Notes: a model not told the origin generated them from the sequence alone. Positions 13,814 to 24,278 are shown, numbered from the stretch's first letter. The stretch: DNA of 34,962 nt from Desulfobaccales bacterium (GCA_037481655.1 JBBFLF010000026.1:1-34962), one strand, 5' to 3'. Translations and numbers: made by a program.

Positions 13814-13830
13814 CCGGCGGGGGTGTGTGC

Positions 13831-14820
13831 ATGGGGGATAAAGAGCTTTCCGGGTTGACCGTCCTGGTGACCGGCAGCGCCGGCTTCATCGGCTTTCATG
13901 TGAGCGCGGCCCTCCTGGCCCGGGGGGCCACGGTGGTGGGGTTGGACAATTACAACGACTACTACTCGCCGGCCTTAAAACGGGACCGGGACCGGGAGCT
14001 CAGGCGCCATCCCGGGTTTGTCTCCGTGGAGCTGGACCTGGTGGACCGGGGGGGCCTGGAGGGCCTCTTTCATGAGCACCGGCCCCAGAAGATCTGCCAT
14101 CTGGCGGCCCAGGCGGGGGTGCGCTACTCCCTCATCAACCCCTATGCCTACCAGGAGGCCAACCTGGAGGGCTTCCTCAACCTCATCGAGCTGGCGAGGC
14201 GCCATGAGGTGGAGCGCTTTGTCTATGCCTCCAGCTCCAGTGTCTACGGCGGGCTCACTGAGCTCCCCTTTTCCGAGAGCCAGCGGGTGGACACCCCCAT
14301 CAGCCTGTATGCCGCCACCAAGCGGGCCAATGAGCTCATGGCCCACGCCTACACCCACCTCTTCGGCCTGCCCACCGTGGGGCTGCGCCTCTTCACCGTG
14401 TACGGGCCCTGGGGCCGGCCGGACATGGCCATGTGGCTGTTTACTGCCGCCATGCTGGCGGGGAAGCCCATCAAGGTCTTTAACTACGGCCACATGGAGC
14501 GGGACTTCACCTACATTGACGATGCGGTGCAAGGCATTGTGGCGGCGCTGTTGACCCCGGGGCTGGAAAGGTATGAAATCTTCAACCTCGGCAACCACCG
14601 GGCGGAACCGCTGACCAAGGTGATCCGGCTTTTGGAGGAGCACTTGGGGATTACTGCCCAGCAGGAGCTCCTGCCCCTGCAGCCGGGGGATGTGCCCGCC
14701 ACCTTTGCCGACATCTCCCATGCCCAGGATAAACTCGGTTTTTATCCCCGCACCCCCATCGAAGAAGGCATTCCCCGCTTCATCGCCTGGTACCGCCAGT
14801 ATCACGGCCTGAGTGCGTAA
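13831..14820 (+). CDS. NAD-dependent epimerase, UDP-glucuronate 4-epimerase-like
   Basis: An extended short-chain dehydrogenase of 329 residues from the ATG at 13831; a GTG two codons earlier is also in frame. It has the Rossmann motif GSAGFIG (15-21), the LDNYNDYY segment of the CapI/LspL group (about 38-45), the HLAAQAGVRYS signature (about 90-100), and catalytic S/Y/K residues with Y160xxxK164. YGPWGRPDMA (about 191-200) is typical of UDP-glucuronate 4-epimerases, which interconvert UDP-glucuronate and UDP-galacturonate. It lies 251 bases before the glycosyltransferase operon and may supply a uronic-acid precursor, but it appears to have its own promoter. Other sugar-nucleotide epimerase activities cannot be excluded. 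Confidence 0.92.
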   Translation: MGDKELSGLTVLVTGSAGFIGFHVSAALLARGATVVGLDNYNDYYSPALKRDRDRELRRHPGFVSVELDLVDRGGLEGLFHEHRPQKICHLAAQAGVRYSLINPYAYQEANLEGFLNLIELARRHEVERFVYASSSSVYGGLTELPFSESQRVDTPISLYAATKRANELMAHAYTHLFGLPTVGLRLFTVYGPWGRPDMAMWLFTAAMLAGKPIKVFNYGHMERDFTYIDDAVQGIVAALLTPGLERYEIFNLGNHRAEPLTKVIRLLEEHLGITAQQELLPLQPGDVPATFADISHAQDKLGFYPRTPIEEGIPRFIAWYRQYHGLSA

Positions 14821-15071: not shown

Positions 15072-16712
15072 ATGTCCCCCGATTTGCCGTCCGGAGGCCC
15101 GCCTGCAGCGGCTTCCCGCCGGGAAGGGCAGGGCCGCTTGGCGCATGCGGTCCGGGTCTGGTGGGCCGATCGTCGCGGGCGCCTGCCCTATCGTCGCTTT
15201 CGGGACCTGGAGGACCGGCCCCGGCGGCTGGCGGCCCAAGACGCCTCTTTGCTGACGGTGGCGCTGGGCCTCGTTTACCTGGGCTGGCTGGCTTGGGTGG
15301 TCTGGCGCAGCCGGGGTCTTCCGGACCTCGCCTTTCTGGCGGCGGAGGCCCTGGCCTTTCTCCTCCTCGCCTGCCTGGCCTTTGACATCTGGCACCTTCG
15401 GTTTCACCGCCCTGAGGGCCTCCCCCTGGCCAGCCCCCCGCCGGTGGATGTCTTGGTCACCTGCTGCGGCGAACCCCTGCCCGTGATTCACACCACCCTG
15501 CAGGCTATTCGCCGGATTGCCTACGAACCCCTCACCGTTTACGTGCTGGACGACGGCGCCTCTCCCCAGGTGGAGGCCCTGGCCCTGTCCCTGGGCTTTC
15601 GCTACCATTCCCGGGTGGGGGCCGGCCTGCCCCGTCGGGATGCCAAAAGCGGCAACCTCAACTTCGGCCTCGGGCTGAGCCGCGGGGAGTTCATCCTGGT
15701 GTTGGACGCCGACCAGGTGCCCCAGCCGGACATCGTCACCCGGCTGGTGGGCTTCTTCCAGATCCCCAAGGTAGCCTACGTCCAGTCCCGCCAGTCCTTT
15801 TACCTGCCCGAAGGGGACCCTTTCTACAATCGGGATGAAATCTTTTATGAAGTTATCCAGTGCGCCAACGACCGGGTCAATGCGGTCATCTCCTGCGGCT
15901 CCGGGGTGATGTACCGCCGGGCGGCGCTGGCGGAGCTGGGCGGCTTTGCCACCTGGAATCTCATCGAGGACTTCACCACCTCGTATGAGCTGGTGAGCCG
16001 GGGCTGGAAGGGGATTTATTACCCCTATGCCCTGACGCGGGGCCTGGCGCCCCAGGATCTGGCCGGCGTTTACCGGCAGCGCTTCCAGTGGTGTCTGGAC
16101 ACCATGCGCCTCTTTTTCTGGGACAACCCCCTGCTGAAACCCGGCCTTACCTTAAGCCAGCGCCTGCATTTCCTGGTGGTCATGGTGAGCTATCTGGTAA
16201 GCGGCCTGGTGTTTCCGGTGTTTTATGTCATTCCGCTCCTGGCCTACTGGCAGGGCTACACCATCTTTGAGGGTCGGGAATGGCATTATCTGGCCCTGAG
16301 GGGCGCGTATCTGGGGGCCACTTTGCTCATGTTCCGTTACCTCTTTTACCACAAGCAGGCCGCCAAGCAGTTCCGCATGCTCTGTGGCCTCTTTCCGGTC
16401 TATGCCGCGGCCATCGGAGCGGCCCTGTTTTATCCGCCGGGGCGCAAGCCCGCATACCGACTCAACAATCACGCCCCCTTTGCAGAGGTGCGCCCCTGGT
16501 GGTGCCTGTTGCCGCAGATGCTGGTGGTGGGGCTGCACCTCACCCTGCCCCTTTTGTCTTTGCATTTCGGCTGGGCCCCGGTGAACCTCGTGGTCTTCAA
16601 CTCCCTGTTTTCCGCCTTTGTCATCTGGACCCTGGGCGATCTGATCCTGGTGGGTCTCAAGCGGCCCCAGTTTGCCCCCACCATGGACCCGAGGCAGGTA
16701 TATGGCATCTAA
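15072..16712 (+). CDS. Cellulose-synthase-like GT2 processive glycosyltransferase (inner membrane)
   Basis: A 546-residue polytopic enzyme. Two helices (about 57-80 and 86-106) are followed by a cytosolic GT-A domain, then about five membrane segments from residue 365 to 530. Motifs of processive beta-glycosyltransferases are clear: LDDGA (D160, D161), DAKSGN near 190-195, LDADQVPQPD (D212, D214), IEDFTTS (E299, D300) and a QxxxW acceptor motif at 336-340. That last motif reads QRFQW rather than the usual QxxRW. There is no PilZ domain, so direct c-di-GMP control as in BcsA is not evident. The likely job is to polymerise and extrude a beta-linked polysaccharide; the sugar cannot be read from sequence. 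Its stop codon overlaps the start of the TPR-barrel gene. The ATG follows AAGGAAAG. Confidence 0.92.
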   Translation: MSPDLPSGGPPAAASRREGQGRLAHAVRVWWADRRGRLPYRRFRDLEDRPRRLAAQDASLLTVALGLVYLGWLAWVVWRSRGLPDLAFLAAEALAFLLLACLAFDIWHLRFHRPEGLPLASPPPVDVLVTCCGEPLPVIHTTLQAIRRIAYEPLTVYVLDDGASPQVEALALSLGFRYHSRVGAGLPRRDAKSGNLNFGLGLSRGEFILVLDADQVPQPDIVTRLVGFFQIPKVAYVQSRQSFYLPEGDPFYNRDEIFYEVIQCANDRVNAVISCGSGVMYRRAALAELGGFATWNLIEDFTTSYELVSRGWKGIYYPYALTRGLAPQDLAGVYRQRFQWCLDTMRLFFWDNPLLKPGLTLSQRLHFLVVMVSYLVSGLVFPVFYVIPLLAYWQGYTIFEGREWHYLALRGAYLGATLLMFRYLFYHKQAAKQFRMLCGLFPVYAAAIGAALFYPPGRKPAYRLNNHAPFAEVRPWWCLLPQMLVVGLHLTLPLLSLHFGWAPVNLVVFNSLFSAFVIWTLGDLILVGLKRPQFAPTMDPRQVYGI

Positions 16713-19700
16713 GGCCCGCTGGCTGGTGGCCCTCGTGCCACTTTTGTTTCTGGTGGGGGTGCTCACCCTGGCCCACCGGCGGGATCCCGATTTCTGGCGC
16801 TCGCCGGTGGGGCTGTACCGCTCGGCCCAGGAGGCGGAGAAGCGGGGCGAACTCACCCAGGCCCTGAAGCTGGCGGAAAAATCCTGGCAGCGGCACCCCG
16901 CCCATCCCGACGTGGGTACTTTCTTGGGCTGGCTCTATCTCAAGAGCGGGCAGCCGGAGCGGGCCGCGGCCCTGTTTCAGGAGCTGTGGCCAAGGCATCC
17001 CCAGGCCACCGCCGCCTTGAAGGGCCTGGCCCAGGCCCTGGACCAGCTGGACCGGCGGGCGGAAGCCCTGGAACATTTGGCCCGTCACCTGGAGGCCCAC
17101 CCCGAGGATTCGGACGTCCTCCTCTTTGCCGCCCAGTTCACCAGTGCCCGGGAGGAGGAGCGGGAGCTGGCCCTGGGCTATTACCGTCGCCTTTACCGCC
17201 TCAAGCCCGAGCGGGAGGTGCGCCGTCAGCTCGTCAACCTCCTCACCGCGGCACATCGCTACCGGGAGGCCATCGCCCTGATGGAGGAGGAGACCGCAGC
17301 GCATCCCGAGGACCAGGAGGCGCTGCACCAACTGGCCCTGCTGTATTACTGGCAGCGGGATTACCAGGCGGCGAGCGACGTTTACGACCAGTTGCTTATG
17401 CGGGCCAAAGACCAGGCCGCCTGGCGGGAGGAAGCGGCCAAAGTGGCCGATGCCGCCGGCCGGGAGGACGCGGCCCTGAAGCACTACCTGTGGCTCTACG
17501 GCAAAAACCAGGGCAAAAAGGAATACGCCCTGAAACTGGCCCGGCTGTGGTCCCAGAAAGGCAAGCACACCGAGGCGGTGGCGGTGCTGGCGCCCCTGAT
17601 GGAAGACCAGCCGGATCCGGAGGTGCGGCGCTGGTATGCCCTGGAGCTGCTTCTGACCGGCGAGCCGGAGGGGGCCTTGCGGGAATACCGCCGGGCCTGG
17701 GAGGCCGGCGATACCCATCAGGAGACCATCATCAACCTGGCCCGCCTCTATGCCCGGCAGAAGCAGTTCAGCAAGGCGGCGGGCATGTGGGATGAAGCCC
17801 GACGGCGCCAGCTCCTGAGGGGGGAGCTGCGCTGGGAGGCGGCCCTCACCTACTCCTACGCTCACCGCTACGGCGAGGCGGTGGAGGTCTTGAAGCCGGT
17901 GGAGCGGGATAACCCCAAATATCCCCGCCTCCTTCTCTTTTTGGGCCAGCTTCATTTCTACCAGAAGAACTGGGGCCAGGCGGCCCACTATTTCAGGGCC
18001 TATCTTGAGAAACACCCTGAGGATGCCGAAGCCCGGCGGCTGCTGGCTGAAGCCCTGGCCTTCCAGCCCGAGGCCCGGGAGGAGGCCATTGCGGCTTATG
18101 GCGAACTCGCCACCCGGCAAGGGGACCTGGAGGCGCGGCTGAGGCGCATTGCGCTGCTGTTGGAGGAGAAAAAATGGCAGGCAGCGGAGCAGGAGCTGAA
18201 GGCCTGCCCCCTACCCCAGGAGCCCCGGCTGCTGATGGAACAGGCCCGGCTGTGCCTGTGGGCCGGGGACCTGGAAGGCGCCCGGGCCCGCCTGGAGGAG
18301 TATGGCAAGCGGGAGCCCCGGGACCTGAACGCCCGGTTGCTCCGGGCCCGGGTCCTCACTTTTGTGGGACGGCCGCAGGAGGCCCAGGAGCTGCTTGGCA
18401 CCCTGTCGACCTCCGGCAGTTGCGCCGAGGGCCGGGCGGTGCTGATGGCGCTCATCGAGGCGGCCCTGGCCCGGAAGGACTGGCGCCAGGCGGAGCACCT
18501 GGCCTTGCGCCTCTATGGCAGCCAATTCCCTGACAAGGTGCGGCCGCCGGCGGATTGGCGGGAGGCCCGCTTATGGACCCGGGAGGAGAGCCGCCGGGAC
18601 CGGGAGGAGGCGTCCGGATTGGCTATCCAGGAGGCCTCCTTGAAAGAGAGGGAGGAAGAGAGGGAGGAGGCGCGCCTGGGGCTGGAGGAGCGCACCTGGG
18701 TGGCCCGGGCCCTGTGTCACAGCACCTCCCCCGAGGCGGTGGACCTGGCGGTGGATTTGTGCCTGAAGAACCTGCGGCGCCAGCGTTATCATCATGCCAC
18801 CCTCCTCATTCTCTCCCATCTGCTGCCCAAGCTGACGCGCTTTGAAGACCTTTCCCGGGTGGCGGCAAGGATTCCCGGGGTGCGGGTGGACAGCCCGGAA
18901 TACGTGGCCTCCCTGGCCTATTTTGTGGGGAGCGCCGGCCGCCACGGAGGCAAGCTGGATTACCTCCTGCACGTGCTGAAGGAGTACCGGCATCATAAAT
19001 TCCCGGACAACCCCGGGGAACTCCTGGGGCTGGCGGCCCTGGCCCTGGAGCTGGAGGAGCCCAAGGTGGCGGCGGACTACTGCCGCCAGGCCCTGCGCCT
19101 CAAGCCCCAGGATGCCCGGGCGGAGCAGCTCCTGTCCCAATGCCAGATGCTGGCCCGGGATTTCGGGCCGGTCCTGGCCCGCCTGGAGGGGAATCCGGAG
19201 GGCCAGGCCCCTCTCACTGCCGCCCGCTTGTATTTCATGCGGGGGCAATATGAGGGGGTGAAGGCGGCGGTGGCCAAAATTCCCCCGGACCATCCGGATT
19301 ATGTGCCCGGGCGGCTGCTCATGGCCAAGGCCCAACGCCTGGAGCGCCGCTATGAGGACGCCCTGAAGACCCTGGAGGGCCTGGCCGGCCAGGCGGCGCC
19401 GGAAGCCCTCCTCATGGAGAAGGCCCAGGTGCTGGAGGGCATGGGCGACCGCCGGGCGGGCCAGCTCTATGACGAGGTCATCCGCCGGCAGCCCGGCACC
19501 CAGGAGGCCCGGGTGGCGGCGGCCCGGCGGGCCCGGGCGCACAAGAACTGGGGTGGGGCTTATAAGGCCTATGCCGAGGCCCTGAAGCACGCCCCCCAGG
19601 ACGTGGAGCTGTTAAACGAACTGGAGTATGTCAAGGAACAGATGCGGCCGCAGCTGGCCTCCCGGGGTTTCCCCTTCGCCCGGGGGGAGAGGCGCCCCGA

Positions 19701-20832
19701 AGAAGGCTTCCGGCCCTGGCAGTTCTCCCGGCCGGACCGGGAATGGCTGGGCTCCCTCCCCAAAGCCGGCATGATCCCGGTGGTGCACCCGGAAACACTC
19801 TATTTTGACGACAGCAACGGCCTATATGGCACCATTTTCCGGGCCTCCGCCTCCTTTTGGGCCGCTCGCCGCCTGCCGGTGCACCTGGCGGTGGAATTCC
19901 GGGAATACAACCAGCGGTCCCGGTCCCAGGAGCAGGGGCCGGTGGACCTGGGTCTGGCCAAGGTTTACCGGCAGGACGCCAAAGACCAGAGCCGGCTCCG
20001 GCGCCTGGAGGTCTCCGTGGGGGCCGGGCCGGTGCATGTGAGCGACCGCCTGCGCCTGAGCGGCGAGCTCATCTGGCGGCGCTACTGGAAGCGGGTGGAC
20101 CGCCAGATCCGTCAGGAGGGGCAGGAATTTGTCCCCTTCCCGATGCCGGCCTTTTTCGATGTCACCCGCTCGGCGACCTTCACTGACAAGGACAGCCGGG
20201 AGCGGCTTCTGGGGTCGCTGCAGTTGGACGCCACGCTCACCCCTCAGACGGAGGTTTTCCTGCGGTACAGCCGGCGGGATATCTTCGATCAGGACCCGCA
20301 TCTCTATCCCCGGCTGTTCCAGAGTGTCCTCAACCTGGGGGATGCCCGGCTCATCACCTCCCATCAGGTGGATGTGGGGTGGTCCCACCAGTTCCGGCCG
20401 GGGCTGGAGTGGCGCAGTACCGTGTCCGGGGCCTTCTTCTCCGATCACAACCGGCGCTTCAGCCTCTACCAGGGCCTCACCTGGCAGGCGCTCTCCCAGC
20501 CCCGCATGCAGCTCAGCTTCACCCCCCACTACTACCTGGCCCTCTATGAGGACGAGCACCGGGCCTACTTCAGTCCCCCTTATTACCACGCCCTGGGGGT
20601 GAGCGTGGATTTCAGCCGCCATATTTTCCGCCTCCCCACCCTGATCCTGCAGGGCTCCTTCCAGGTGGTGGGCCAGCACGGCGACTGGGGCCCGGCCTTT
20701 CAGGGGCTGGCGGCCTTGGAGTGGGAGCCGGTGCACAACTTTTTCATCGACCCCCACATCTTCTATTTCCGGGAGTGGGTGGACAATTACCGCATCCTCA
20801 CGGTGGGACTCTCGTTGCGCTATGTGTTCTGA
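16702..20832 (+). CDS. TPR-rich outer-membrane exopolysaccharide exporter (PelB/BcsC/PgaA-like)
   Basis: A 1376-residue protein. The ATG at 16702 overlaps the glycosyltransferase stop by 11 bases and follows GAGGCAGG; upstream in-frame codons lie inside the previous gene. A hydrophobic segment (about residues 7-24) is a signal peptide or membrane anchor. Helical repeats of the TPR type then fill about residues 30-980. The last 390 residues are rich in alternating aromatic and polar positions (VHLAVEFREYNQRSR, TPHYYLALYEDEHRAYFS) and end in LSLRYVF, with the terminal aromatic residue and -3 aromatic expected of a BAM-inserted beta-barrel. PelB, BcsC and PgaA share this TPR-plus-barrel plan and export Pel, cellulose and poly-GlcNAc. 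Which family it belongs to is unresolved. Tight coupling to the GT2 gene supports a synthesis-export pair. Confidence 0.87.
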   Translation: MASKARWLVALVPLLFLVGVLTLAHRRDPDFWRSPVGLYRSAQEAEKRGELTQALKLAEKSWQRHPAHPDVGTFLGWLYLKSGQPERAAALFQELWPRHPQATAALKGLAQALDQLDRRAEALEHLARHLEAHPEDSDVLLFAAQFTSAREEERELALGYYRRLYRLKPEREVRRQLVNLLTAAHRYREAIALMEEETAAHPEDQEALHQLALLYYWQRDYQAASDVYDQLLMRAKDQAAWREEAAKVADAAGREDAALKHYLWLYGKNQGKKEYALKLARLWSQKGKHTEAVAVLAPLMEDQPDPEVRRWYALELLLTGEPEGALREYRRAWEAGDTHQETIINLARLYARQKQFSKAAGMWDEARRRQLLRGELRWEAALTYSYAHRYGEAVEVLKPVERDNPKYPRLLLFLGQLHFYQKNWGQAAHYFRAYLEKHPEDAEARRLLAEALAFQPEAREEAIAAYGELATRQGDLEARLRRIALLLEEKKWQAAEQELKACPLPQEPRLLMEQARLCLWAGDLEGARARLEEYGKREPRDLNARLLRARVLTFVGRPQEAQELLGTLSTSGSCAEGRAVLMALIEAALARKDWRQAEHLALRLYGSQFPDKVRPPADWREARLWTREESRRDREEASGLAIQEASLKEREEEREEARLGLEERTWVARALCHSTSPEAVDLAVDLCLKNLRRQRYHHATLLILSHLLPKLTRFEDLSRVAARIPGVRVDSPEYVASLAYFVGSAGRHGGKLDYLLHVLKEYRHHKFPDNPGELLGLAALALELEEPKVAADYCRQALRLKPQDARAEQLLSQCQMLARDFGPVLARLEGNPEGQAPLTAARLYFMRGQYEGVKAAVAKIPPDHPDYVPGRLLMAKAQRLERRYEDALKTLEGLAGQAAPEALLMEKAQVLEGMGDRRAGQLYDEVIRRQPGTQEARVAAARRARAHKNWGGAYKAYAEALKHAPQDVELLNELEYVKEQMRPQLASRGFPFARGERRPEEGFRPWQFSRPDREWLGSLPKAGMIPVVHPETLYFDDSNGLYGTIFRASASFWAARRLPVHLAVEFREYNQRSRSQEQGPVDLGLAKVYRQDAKDQSRLRRLEVSVGAGPVHVSDRLRLSGELIWRRYWKRVDRQIRQEGQEFVPFPMPAFFDVTRSATFTDKDSRERLLGSLQLDATLTPQTEVFLRYSRRDIFDQDPHLYPRLFQSVLNLGDARLITSHQVDVGWSHQFRPGLEWRSTVSGAFFSDHNRRFSLYQGLTWQALSQPRMQLSFTPHYYLALYEDEHRAYFSPPYYHALGVSVDFSRHIFRLPTLILQGSFQVVGQHGDWGPAFQGLAALEWEPVHNFFIDPHIFYFREWVDNYRILTVGLSLRYVF

Positions 20833-20908
20833 GGCCACGGTTACCGGGAACAGGCCAGACCTTCCCCTTCCCGGCGGTTTTGTCCCCCGGGGAAAGGGTC
20901 AGGGTTCC

Positions 20909-22162
20909 ATGCCCGGGGCTGCGAAGGGCCAGGCCAGCCCACTGCTTGGCGTGGTTCTGAGCCTCAGCCTGGCATTGCTCACCGGCTGCGCCGAGGTCAC
21001 CCGGCCCACCCCCTCGGCCCAGGAAGTGGAGGCGGTGCAACTGACCGCGGTGCAACGCCACCCGCACAAATCCTGGAGCCTGGAGCGGGTCTCCCGGGTA
21101 TTCTTAAGGGAGCTGGCGGTGCTGCCTCAGATCCATGGCCGCACTTACCCCTTCTTGGGTTTTGACTGGTGGGTCACCGAGACCGGCAAGGTGGTGATTG
21201 ACAATGTCTGGCAGCCTTCGCCGGCCCATGACGCTCGGCTTAAGCAGGGGGATGTGCTGGTGGCGGTGAACAATTGGCCCATTCACCCCTGGGTCCGGGA
21301 GTGGGATGAGAAGACCCGCCTGGCCCGGGACCTGTTCAAGGACGCCTTCTGGGTGAGCTCCCGGCCCCGTTATGGCCGCAAGCCCCAGGAACAATTGACG
21401 GTGTTTCAGCTCCCGGGCGAGGTCCTGGTGGCCCTGATGCTGGATATCAAATACATCCGCATGGAGAGCCGGGAGCGCTACCTCACCGGGCCGGTGGAGC
21501 TCCTGGTGGAGCGGGAGGGCGAGCGCTTTGGGGTCACCCTCTACCCCCAGCACCTGCCGGCGGATTACGCCATTCTGGTGGATACCCAGGATAACCGCAT
21601 CAATGCCTATGCGGCTCCGGGCCGAGTCATCCTCACCCGGCGGCTGGTGTCCTTCTGCCTCAATGACGACGAGCTGGCAGTGGTGGTGGGCCATGAGCTG
21701 GCGCACCAGGCCCACGGCCACCTGACCCGGGGGGCGGGGCATCGCCGGGTGGGGGGGTTGGCCGGTCAGGTCTGGCAGTTGGCCGGGGCTTTCGCCACCC
21801 AATCCTTGCAGGGACTCCTGAACTTCCGCCGGGCGGTGTGGCGGGAGGAGCGCCTGCCCGGGGTGGTGGACGACGCCGTGGTGAGCGCCTTCTCCCGGGA
21901 GGACGAACGGGAGGCCGACACGTACGGGCTCTGGTACGCCTACCTGGCGGGCTACAACCTCCAGCGGGGCCTGGCCGTCTGGGAGAGGCTGGGGGCGGTG
22001 GTGCAGGACCCCTTTGAGCGCACCTATTTTTTGGACCATCACCCGGCACCTCTGGAGCGCCTGGCCCGTCTTCAGAAGGTGGCGTCGTATTTCGCCGCCG
22101 GCCGGGCAGCGGAGGTCTTTTTGCAGTCCCCGGACCTGAACCGGCGTCCGGGCCCCTTGTAA
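20909..22162 (+). CDS. M48-family metalloprotease lipoprotein with PDZ-like region
   Basis: A 417-residue protein from the ATG at 20909, preferred because it gives a signal peptide ending in the lipobox LLTGC (C27). An in-frame ATG at 20822 would overlap the previous stop codon but would bury the signal. Residues about 90-130 resemble a PDZ fold (VVIDNVWQPSPAHDARLKQG). The peptidase domain has HELAH at 262-266, the third zinc ligand E335 in EREADTYG, and the downstream HHPAPLERLARL motif. M48 lipoproteins such as BepA and LoiP act on mis-assembled outer-membrane proteins; this one lacks a clear TPR domain. It is 76 bases after the TPR-barrel gene on the same strand, so quality control of that barrel is a reasonable guess. 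Some other M48 families carry PDZ domains too. Confidence 0.88.
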   Translation: MPGAAKGQASPLLGVVLSLSLALLTGCAEVTRPTPSAQEVEAVQLTAVQRHPHKSWSLERVSRVFLRELAVLPQIHGRTYPFLGFDWWVTETGKVVIDNVWQPSPAHDARLKQGDVLVAVNNWPIHPWVREWDEKTRLARDLFKDAFWVSSRPRYGRKPQEQLTVFQLPGEVLVALMLDIKYIRMESRERYLTGPVELLVEREGERFGVTLYPQHLPADYAILVDTQDNRINAYAAPGRVILTRRLVSFCLNDDELAVVVGHELAHQAHGHLTRGAGHRRVGGLAGQVWQLAGAFATQSLQGLLNFRRAVWREERLPGVVDDAVVSAFSREDEREADTYGLWYAYLAGYNLQRGLAVWERLGAVVQDPFERTYFLDHHPAPLERLARLQKVASYFAAGRAAEVFLQSPDLNRRPGPL

Positions 22163-22184
22163 ACCCTCAGTCTTCGGAGGATAT

Positions 22185-22343
22185 ATGTCTCCTTTGTGGG
22201 AAACGATGGCACATGCCCCCGGGTTTGCTCCCTCCCTTGTGGTGGGACTGGTGGGGTGGCTGGTGTGGCGCCTGCACCGTCAACGTCAACGGGATCAGTA
22301 CCGTCGCCGGGAGCGCATCATTAAACGGCTGAGCTCCACCTGA
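22185..22343 (+). CDS. 52-residue predicted membrane miniprotein
   Basis: A short reading frame with a strong GGAGG ribosome binding site five bases before its ATG, 22 bases after the M48 stop codon. The product has a hydrophobic helix (about residues 14-30, with SLVVGLVGWLVW) followed by a very basic tail (residues 29-48, about ten Arg or Lys and one His), so the tail is expected in the cytoplasm. No family is recognised. Position and ribosome binding site suggest it is the last gene of the exopolysaccharide operon. It could be an accessory subunit of the synthase, as small membrane proteins are in some cellulose systems (for example BcsF), but that is inference only. Confidence 0.6.
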   Translation: MSPLWETMAHAPGFAPSLVVGLVGWLVWRLHRQRQRDQYRRRERIIKRLSST

Positions 22344-23471: not shown

Positions 23472-23480
23472 CTAGACTTT
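23467..23480. other. 14-bp perfect palindrome over the HD-GYP stop codon
   Basis: AAAGTCTAGACTTT is a perfect palindrome whose centre contains the TAG stop (23472-23474, minus strand) of the HD-GYP gene. Flanking CACG and CGTG allow the stem to extend past a small bulge. It may act as part of a 3'-end hairpin. Confidence 0.45.
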
Positions 23481-24278
23481 CGTGGCTGTGGTATGGGTGG
23501 AGGCCGAAGTCTGGGTCTGACCCGGGCCCTCGGCCCGGCGGAAGAAGGTCAGACGAGGGGCAGGCAGGCGGTCGGGGAGCTTTTGCCGGGCAGAGGAGAG
23601 AAAGGCCACGAATTTCTTTGTGAGATCGGGGTCGAAGAGGCGCCCAGCCTGGCTTTCGATCTCGGCCAGGGTTTGAGCCGCGGAAAACCGCTGCCGGTAT
23701 GGGCGGTCGCTGGTCATGGCGTCATAGACGTCCGCCAGAGAGGTGAGGCGGCAGAGGAGAGGAATCTTTGAGCCGGCGAGGCCCTGGGGATAACCGGTGC
23801 CATCCCAGCGTTCGTGATGGAGGAGGATAATTTCCCGCTCACCCGGGGTGAGATTGAGGGGTTCAACGATGAGGTCGCCGATGAGAGGATGCGTGGTGAT
23901 GATGGCCCGTTCTTCCGGGGTGAGGGGGCCAGGCTTGTTGAGAATGGCATCGCTGATGCCGATTTTGCCGATGTCATGCAGAATCACGGCATTTTGCAAG
24001 GTGACAATCTCCCGGGAGCTGAGTCCCAGGTAGAAGGCAAAGCAGGTGGCAATCTCCGTGACCCGGAGGGAATGATGGGCGGTATAAGGATCCCGGGCGG
24101 CCAGGGTGCGGAGCAGTGCCTGGATGGTGGTGCTGACCAAGGTGGAGGCCGGGCTAATCGCCTCCCCCTCCCCCTCGGAGTGGGAAGGACCTGGAGAGGG
24201 GGGCTCAGGGGAAAATTTCGCCTTCCCAGGCGGGAGACTTGAGATGGCCTGAAGTTTGCTATGGACCAAAGTAGGCAT
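23472..24278 (-). CDS. HD-GYP domain protein, probable c-di-GMP phosphodiesterase
   Basis: A 268-residue soluble protein. After a Pro/Ser-rich N-terminal tail (about 1-45), residues 50-225 form the HD-GYP domain. It shows the metal-binding HDIGKIGISD (H101, D102), upstream HHSLR (H68, H69), HHERWDGTGYPQGL (154-167) and LADVYDAMTSDRPYR. All hallmark residues for hydrolysis of c-di-GMP are visible, so it is probably active. It lies 12 bases after a stand-alone receiver gene on the same strand; the pair resembles a split version of RpfG, in which receiver and HD-GYP are one chain. The ATG at 24278 has a poor ribosome binding site, consistent with translational coupling to the receiver gene. Confidence 0.92.
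   Translation of the reverse strand: MPTLVHSKLQAISSLPPGKAKFSPEPPSPGPSHSEGEGEAISPASTLVSTTIQALLRTLAARDPYTAHHSLRVTEIATCFAFYLGLSSREIVTLQNAVILHDIGKIGISDAILNKPGPLTPEERAIITTHPLIGDLIVEPLNLTPGEREIILLHHERWDGTGYPQGLAGSKIPLLCRLTSLADVYDAMTSDRPYRQRFSAAQTLAEIESQAGRLFDPDLTKKFVAFLSSARQKLPDRLPAPRLTFFRRAEGPGQTQTSASTHTTATKV

Follow-up and report, generated by a model that had tools for sequence, protein, structure and literature searches.

The core of a surface-glycan pathway can consist of one family 2 glycosyltransferase (GT2) and one tetratricopeptide-repeat (TPR) barrel protein, as known from the NfrB/NfrA pair of the E. coli NGR glycan (PMC8669472). For the cellulose synthase BcsA, synthesis in vitro requires at least the tail anchor of BcsB, this anchor occupies the groove formed by transmembrane (TM) helices 1–3 of BcsA, and in the resting enzyme the PilZ domain holds the gating loop (PMC11470070). 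A survey of synthase-dependent operons explained apparent BcsB loss by fusion and treated the QxxRW motif as conserved (PMC7112194). Here we describe a locus of the order Desulfobaccales in which a BcsA-like synthase is encoded next to a very large TPR-barrel exporter and an M48 lipoprotein protease. We read it, with a probability of roughly 0.6, as a reduced form of synthase-dependent exopolysaccharide secretion, made of a synthase free of BcsB and PilZ, a membrane-bridging TPR secretin and a quality-control protease. The locus lies in a stretch of 34,962 nucleotides (the window; GCA_037481655.1, JBBFLF010000026.1:1-34962) on contig C26 of the assembly of a sulfate-reducer-like bacterium (2.87 Mb, 50 contigs). 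The genomes used for comparison were Desulfobacca/Desulfobaccales assemblies, a group to which we refer as the order Desulfobaccales.

Four open reading frames (ORFs) on the plus strand make up the locus: the GT2 synthase (546 residues, positions 15,072–16,712), the TPR-barrel exporter (1376 residues from an ATG start, 16,702–20,832), the M48 metallopeptidase lipoprotein (20,822–22,162) and a single-pass basic protein of 52 residues (22,185–22,343). An earlier reading of the DNA by itself (the sequence-only reading) had described these same four genes, and all of them proved to be real and of the kinds described. As listed, the GT2 and TPR ORFs share 11 bp, and the TPR and M48 ORFs likewise 11 bp; the true start of the M48 gene may be a later ATG at 20,909. 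That the four would recur together in related genomes holds for the first three and fails for the small protein, which is confined to the genus. The GT2, TPR-barrel and M48 genes are adjacent, in identical order and orientation, in all 20 further Desulfobaccales loci (42–93% identity) from genomes with contigs long enough, one of which (L041) has a broken TPR reading frame. These loci were picked via the barrel, so that only the adjacency of GT2 and M48 counts as independent; the adjacency of the trio is far beyond chance. The barrel was present in each of the 28 other Desulfobaccales genomes sampled and in 0/30 genomes from other families, and a sample of 395 genomes of the phylum gave it in the order plus one marginal match elsewhere. 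The system is real, conserved and functionally coherent.

Pfam and NCBIfam scans gave GT2 and Cellulose_synt matches to the synthase, and the Pfam scan gave no PilZ match along its 546 residues. Its layout is two predicted TM helices, a GT domain with DD, DADQ and ED motifs, QRFQW at the place of QxxRW, and C-terminal TM helices. The profile score was 184 bits to E. coli BcsA versus -0.6 bits to NfrB. The predicted model, of which the fine details are soft (mean predicted local distance difference test score 70), was nearest to the BcsA structure (Z 22.3, 430 residues aligned, root mean square deviation, rmsd, 3.6), so that by sequence and by predicted fold the enzyme groups with BcsA. BcsA has four TM helices ahead of the GT domain and our model has two; loss of the TM1–3 groove with these N-terminal helices would fit the absence of BcsB. 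Two motifs mark the enzyme off from BcsA. QxxRW reads QRxQW in 21/21 members of the order, i.e., the catalytic arginine is replaced by glutamine, and in a tree with the other matches and BcsA all QRxQW members fall into one clade (24 tips, support 1.0), with Arg in 0/24 and Gln in 22/24. In BcsA this arginine binds the donor diphosphate and is essential, the alanine mutant being dead (PMC10592267). The BcsA gating loop motif FxVTxK aligns to a KPxYxxN-type sequence in the clade; PilZ and FxVTxK are both gone from this synthase.

Outside the order the QRxQW clade is scarce: high-scoring members were found in four other genomes of the 395 in the phylum, in 3/246 Nitrospirota, with one lower-scoring match in addition, and in 1/297 Acidobacteriota; sister synthases that lack a TPR partner are included in these numbers. 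Those sisters (L198:818-2482, L199:6805-8013, L195, L196 and L197) adjoin a GH26-like glycosidase gene, as judged by eye, and not a TPR-barrel gene. G022 and G026, two genomes of the order, have a second synthase copy of this sister type, beside a GH26-like gene, and these copies were set apart from the present system. Other clade synthases are fused to a peptidoglycan-binding domain (Omnitrophota, L089:8886-11990) or to a SPOR domain (Syntrophaceae, L087:8962-11124).

The absence of the BcsB and PgaB partners, already claimed in the sequence-only reading, is borne out by the family searches on which the absences in the source genome rest. BcsB (PF03170) was found in 0/22 genomes of the order and in 0/9 genomes of other carriers, whereas the controls, E. 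coli and B. subtilis, came out positive; the PgaB hydrolase domain (PF14883) was found in 0/7 genomes, its control also positive. PilZ proteins are encoded elsewhere in the genome. The proposal of a minimal machine stands for the core of synthesis and export and fails as a full list of parts, as a BcsZ-like lipoprotein of glycoside hydrolase family 8 (GH8, PF01270) is encoded away from the operon, once per genome, in 22/22 genomes of the order (above cut-off in 21). No other gene is kept around it among the 16 loci compared. These GH8s keep the acid Glu55 of BcsZ, have Glu or Asp in the base column and a hydrophobic leader ending in Cys, and their best solved matches are cellulases. The base column (L153:8442-9752 and relatives) holds Glu in the family of the window and in one sister-family genus, and Asp in BcsZ, in the linked GH8s and in the other genus, which may reflect a change of mechanism or an alignment shift. 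Outside the order, GH8 comes directly after the TPR/barrel gene in the four loci with enough sequence (L081, L083, L084 and L194). Because it follows the pair in these other lineages, GT2-TPR-GH8 is probably the ancestral arrangement, from which GH8 would have moved while an M48 lipoprotein came to fill the third-gene slot, as it does in Desulfobaccales only.

The nature of the polymer is where another reading survives best. The altered donor-site residues could mean a different beta-linked product (e.g., containing mannan, uronate or amino sugars), with the GH8 acting as a chitosanase- or xylanase-type enzyme, activities that the family also includes. The GH26-like neighbors of the sister synthases, seen by eye, point the same way, and so does an NAD-dependent nucleotide-sugar epimerase/dehydratase-like gene (13,825–14,820, plus strand; possible precursor supply) that adjoins GT2 upstream in 10/20 relatives. 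However, that linkage is partial and this GH8 scores highest to cellulases, and we regard such a polymer as rather unlikely. It seems improbable, too, that the locus is a degenerate Bcs operon with an ordinary cellulose product, in which bcsA and bcsC stayed together, bcsZ was relocated and bcsB and PilZ were lost. This would account for BcsA being the closest relative by both solved fold and sequence, for a BcsC-like exporter and for cellulase-like GH8s in all the order genomes tested. However, the QxxRW arginine and FxVTxK are changed across a deep clade of several phyla and BcsB is absent from all carriers tested, which points to a lineage that separated long ago rather than to recent decay.

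The exporter gave Pfam/NCBIfam matches to TPR repeats and a PgaA_barrel match below threshold. Its last 420 residues are modeled by AlphaFold as 16 strands, forming a C-terminal outer-membrane barrel domain (19,780–20,829). The best matches of the barrel model were PgaA (Z 22.0), BcsC (Z 21.4) and PelB (Z 21.3), with rmsd 3.0–3.4 over 273–291 residues. These are the three solved polysaccharide secretins, and other barrels reached at most 19 (two-partner transporters 19, porins 16); Foldseek likewise put PgaA and BcsC on top. The comparison with PelB, BcsC and PgaA that the sequence-only reading had suggested thus shows a likeness in fold; in sequence, the similarity of the barrel to BcsC was not significant. 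In domain content and folds, the two genes agree with an exopolysaccharide synthase without PilZ and its TPR-barrel exporter, as in the sequence-only reading.

The TPR protein begins with basic residues, followed by a hydrophobic helix and a junction of the DPxFW type (DPDFW here; helix and junction at 16,720–16,797, plus strand), an arrangement conserved throughout the order. The helix and an xFW junction can be recognized in Solidesulfovibrio, Nitrospirota, Gemmatimonadales and Acidobacteria, and also in a further member of the phylum. PelB has been proposed to keep its N-terminal helix uncleaved and so to connect the two membranes (PMC12141448). From these features the helix of our TPR protein is apparently an uncleaved inner-membrane anchor as well. 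In one acidobacterial locus (L085) the GT2 frame continues without a stop through the helix into the TPRs, i.e., synthase and TPR protein are fused. The alternative is a cleaved signal peptide, as the N-terminus is short and hydrophobic and BcsC and PgaA are made with one and are confined to the outer membrane; the synthase would then need another partner. We find this doubtful, given that helix and DPxFW junction are conserved in and beyond the order and that the fusion retains the helix. In Solidesulfovibrio aerotolerans (L081:9150-10481) the reading frame of the TPR gene ends at TAAAAAAAC, with a barrel-like ORF following in a different frame; this may be a separate gene, a frameshift or a sequencing error.

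The third protein has a Peptidase_M48 match, a weak PDZ match and the lipobox LTGC. Its HELAH (HExxH) and EREAD (ExEAD) motifs are invariant, as are the zinc ligands and an HP motif, and the solved structures related to it are those of BepA, of further M48 peptidases and, for the PDZ-like part, of PDZ domains from a site-2 protease. With a profile of the family, full-length members (at least 519 bits, except one split across contigs) were found solely in genomes of the order, at the exporter locus, while the next-best match in the phylum (107 bits) covered the M48 domain only. This restriction supports the view, already put forward in the sequence-only reading, that the protease is dedicated to the exporter locus. 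A general envelope protease present in the operon by chance is quite improbable: M48 proteases are common, with at least two others in the source genome, but full-length members of this family occur in the order alone and, at every locus examined, next to the exporter gene. A BepA-like action on the 1376-residue exporter would be the simplest function, a guess from family and position.

In the pathway that we propose, the GT2 enzyme would polymerize a UDP-sugar, probably to a beta-1,4-linked glucan-like chain, and pass it out through a membrane channel of its own, with no BcsB and no PilZ gating by c-di-GMP. The chain would be handed directly to the TPR superhelix, held beside the synthase in the inner membrane by the uncleaved N-terminal helix and ending in the 16-strand outer-membrane barrel, so that a single polypeptide would span the envelope. 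The unlinked GH8 lipoprotein may trim or clear the chain in the manner of BcsZ, and the M48/PDZ lipoprotein would be a dedicated assembly and quality-control protease for the exporter. A bolder version, which we offer tentatively and think rather unlikely, is that the TPR exporter replaces BcsB, its uncleaved helix docking on the synthase (or being fused to it) in the way that BcsA is bound by the tail anchor of BcsB; the two polypeptides would then form a continuous conduit from cytosol to surface, with an arginine-free donor site and gate.

Several points weigh against the proposed pathway. The arginine essential in BcsA is a glutamine here, so a different sugar or linkage is possible, as is a need for some other residue in activity. 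The N-terminal helix may be a signal peptide after all, and the fusion is seen on a single metagenome contig, which breaks off inside the TPR part and may be misassembled. The GH8 is unlinked in the order and its role is assigned by association, and the epimerase gene upstream suggests a modified sugar for some members.

The 52-residue protein appears to be a genus-restricted accessory. Its ORF is preceded by a GGAGG-type ribosome-binding site and is intact in both genus mates, with an in-frame indel of 6 nt and, in each of the three comparisons, most change at third codon positions. No counterpart was detected in the other 18 loci and no Pfam or NCBIfam family was significant; a DUF4381 match (17.5 bits, below cut-off) was treated as a chance TM match. 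Convergent and downstream of the operon lies an HD-GYP-like (HD_5) gene (23,472–24,278, minus strand); it stays close to the locus in roughly half of the relatives, even though the synthase itself lacks a c-di-GMP domain. An Rfam scan of the whole window gave no matches.

A BcsA-like lineage that lacks both BcsB and the QxxRW arginine, and in which each TPR-linked synthase comes with a TPR protein (in one case as a fusion), would reveal how small a set of components can secrete a polymer across the envelope, and a two-protein system is simple enough for rebuilding in vitro. A protease dedicated to one exporter, if true, would be a clean model of BepA-type quality control.

Compared with BepA, the protease is likewise a periplasmic M48 peptidase with HExxH and, in our model, an outer-membrane barrel client. 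It differs in being a lipoprotein confined to one operon and in having a PDZ-like domain instead of the TPR domain of BepA: Pfam gives M48 and PDZ only, with no BepA-type C-terminal TPR domain, and NCBIfam BepA scores 37 bits against 570. With PNAG (poly-N-acetylglucosamine) secretion the locus shares a GT2 synthase and the TPR and barrel secretin fold, PgaA being the best barrel match, whereas the GT2 reaches only 60 bits for a PgaC cut-off of 422; this assignment was rejected for the absence of the PgaB domain. PelB resembles our exporter in its very large TPR scaffold, its 16-strand barrel and its N-terminal helix. However, in Pel the synthase is a complex of PelF, PelD, PelE and PelG, accompanied by a lipoprotein ring of PelC, where we find a single GT2; PelC was not seen at the locus, no genome-wide search having been made for it or for PelF/D/E/G. 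The zetaproteobacterial stalk cluster sfz (PMC8250860) was set aside because its Sfz1 resembles BcsB and its synthase is built in a different way.

The Bcs system (BcsA-BcsB-BcsZ-BcsC) shares the processive BcsA-like GT2, an exporter with TPRs and a 16-strand barrel, and a GH8 in the genome. It differs in BcsB, the PilZ domain of the synthase, the QxxRW arginine (Gln here), the gating loop, four N-terminal TM helices against two, and a GH8 that is unlinked here, with an M48 lipoprotein in the operon; a Bcs assignment was discarded on BcsB, PilZ and QxxRW. Our literature search, with subscription journals mostly outside it, found no description of a BcsB-free BcsA/TPR/GH8 locus or of an exopolysaccharide locus with M48. 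NfrB/NfrA is alike in the overlap of the GT2 gene with the TPR-barrel gene, in the third envelope-protein gene that follows and in the lack of BcsB. However, NfrB has an MshEN c-di-GMP domain and a canonical QKSRW, and the third gene is YbcH, not M48. The Pfam scan gave no MshEN match on our GT2 and the similarity to NfrB was not significant, and the missing MshEN and the sequence ruled out an NfrB/NfrA assignment. The undescribed type of machine that the sequence-only reading had suspected does not hold, because the principle of one GT2 and one TPR-barrel protein has its precedent in NfrB/NfrA (PMC8669472) and a GH8 is encoded elsewhere in the genome. As far as the searched literature shows, the Desulfobaccales locus is an undescribed variant of synthase-dependent secretion and not a new type.

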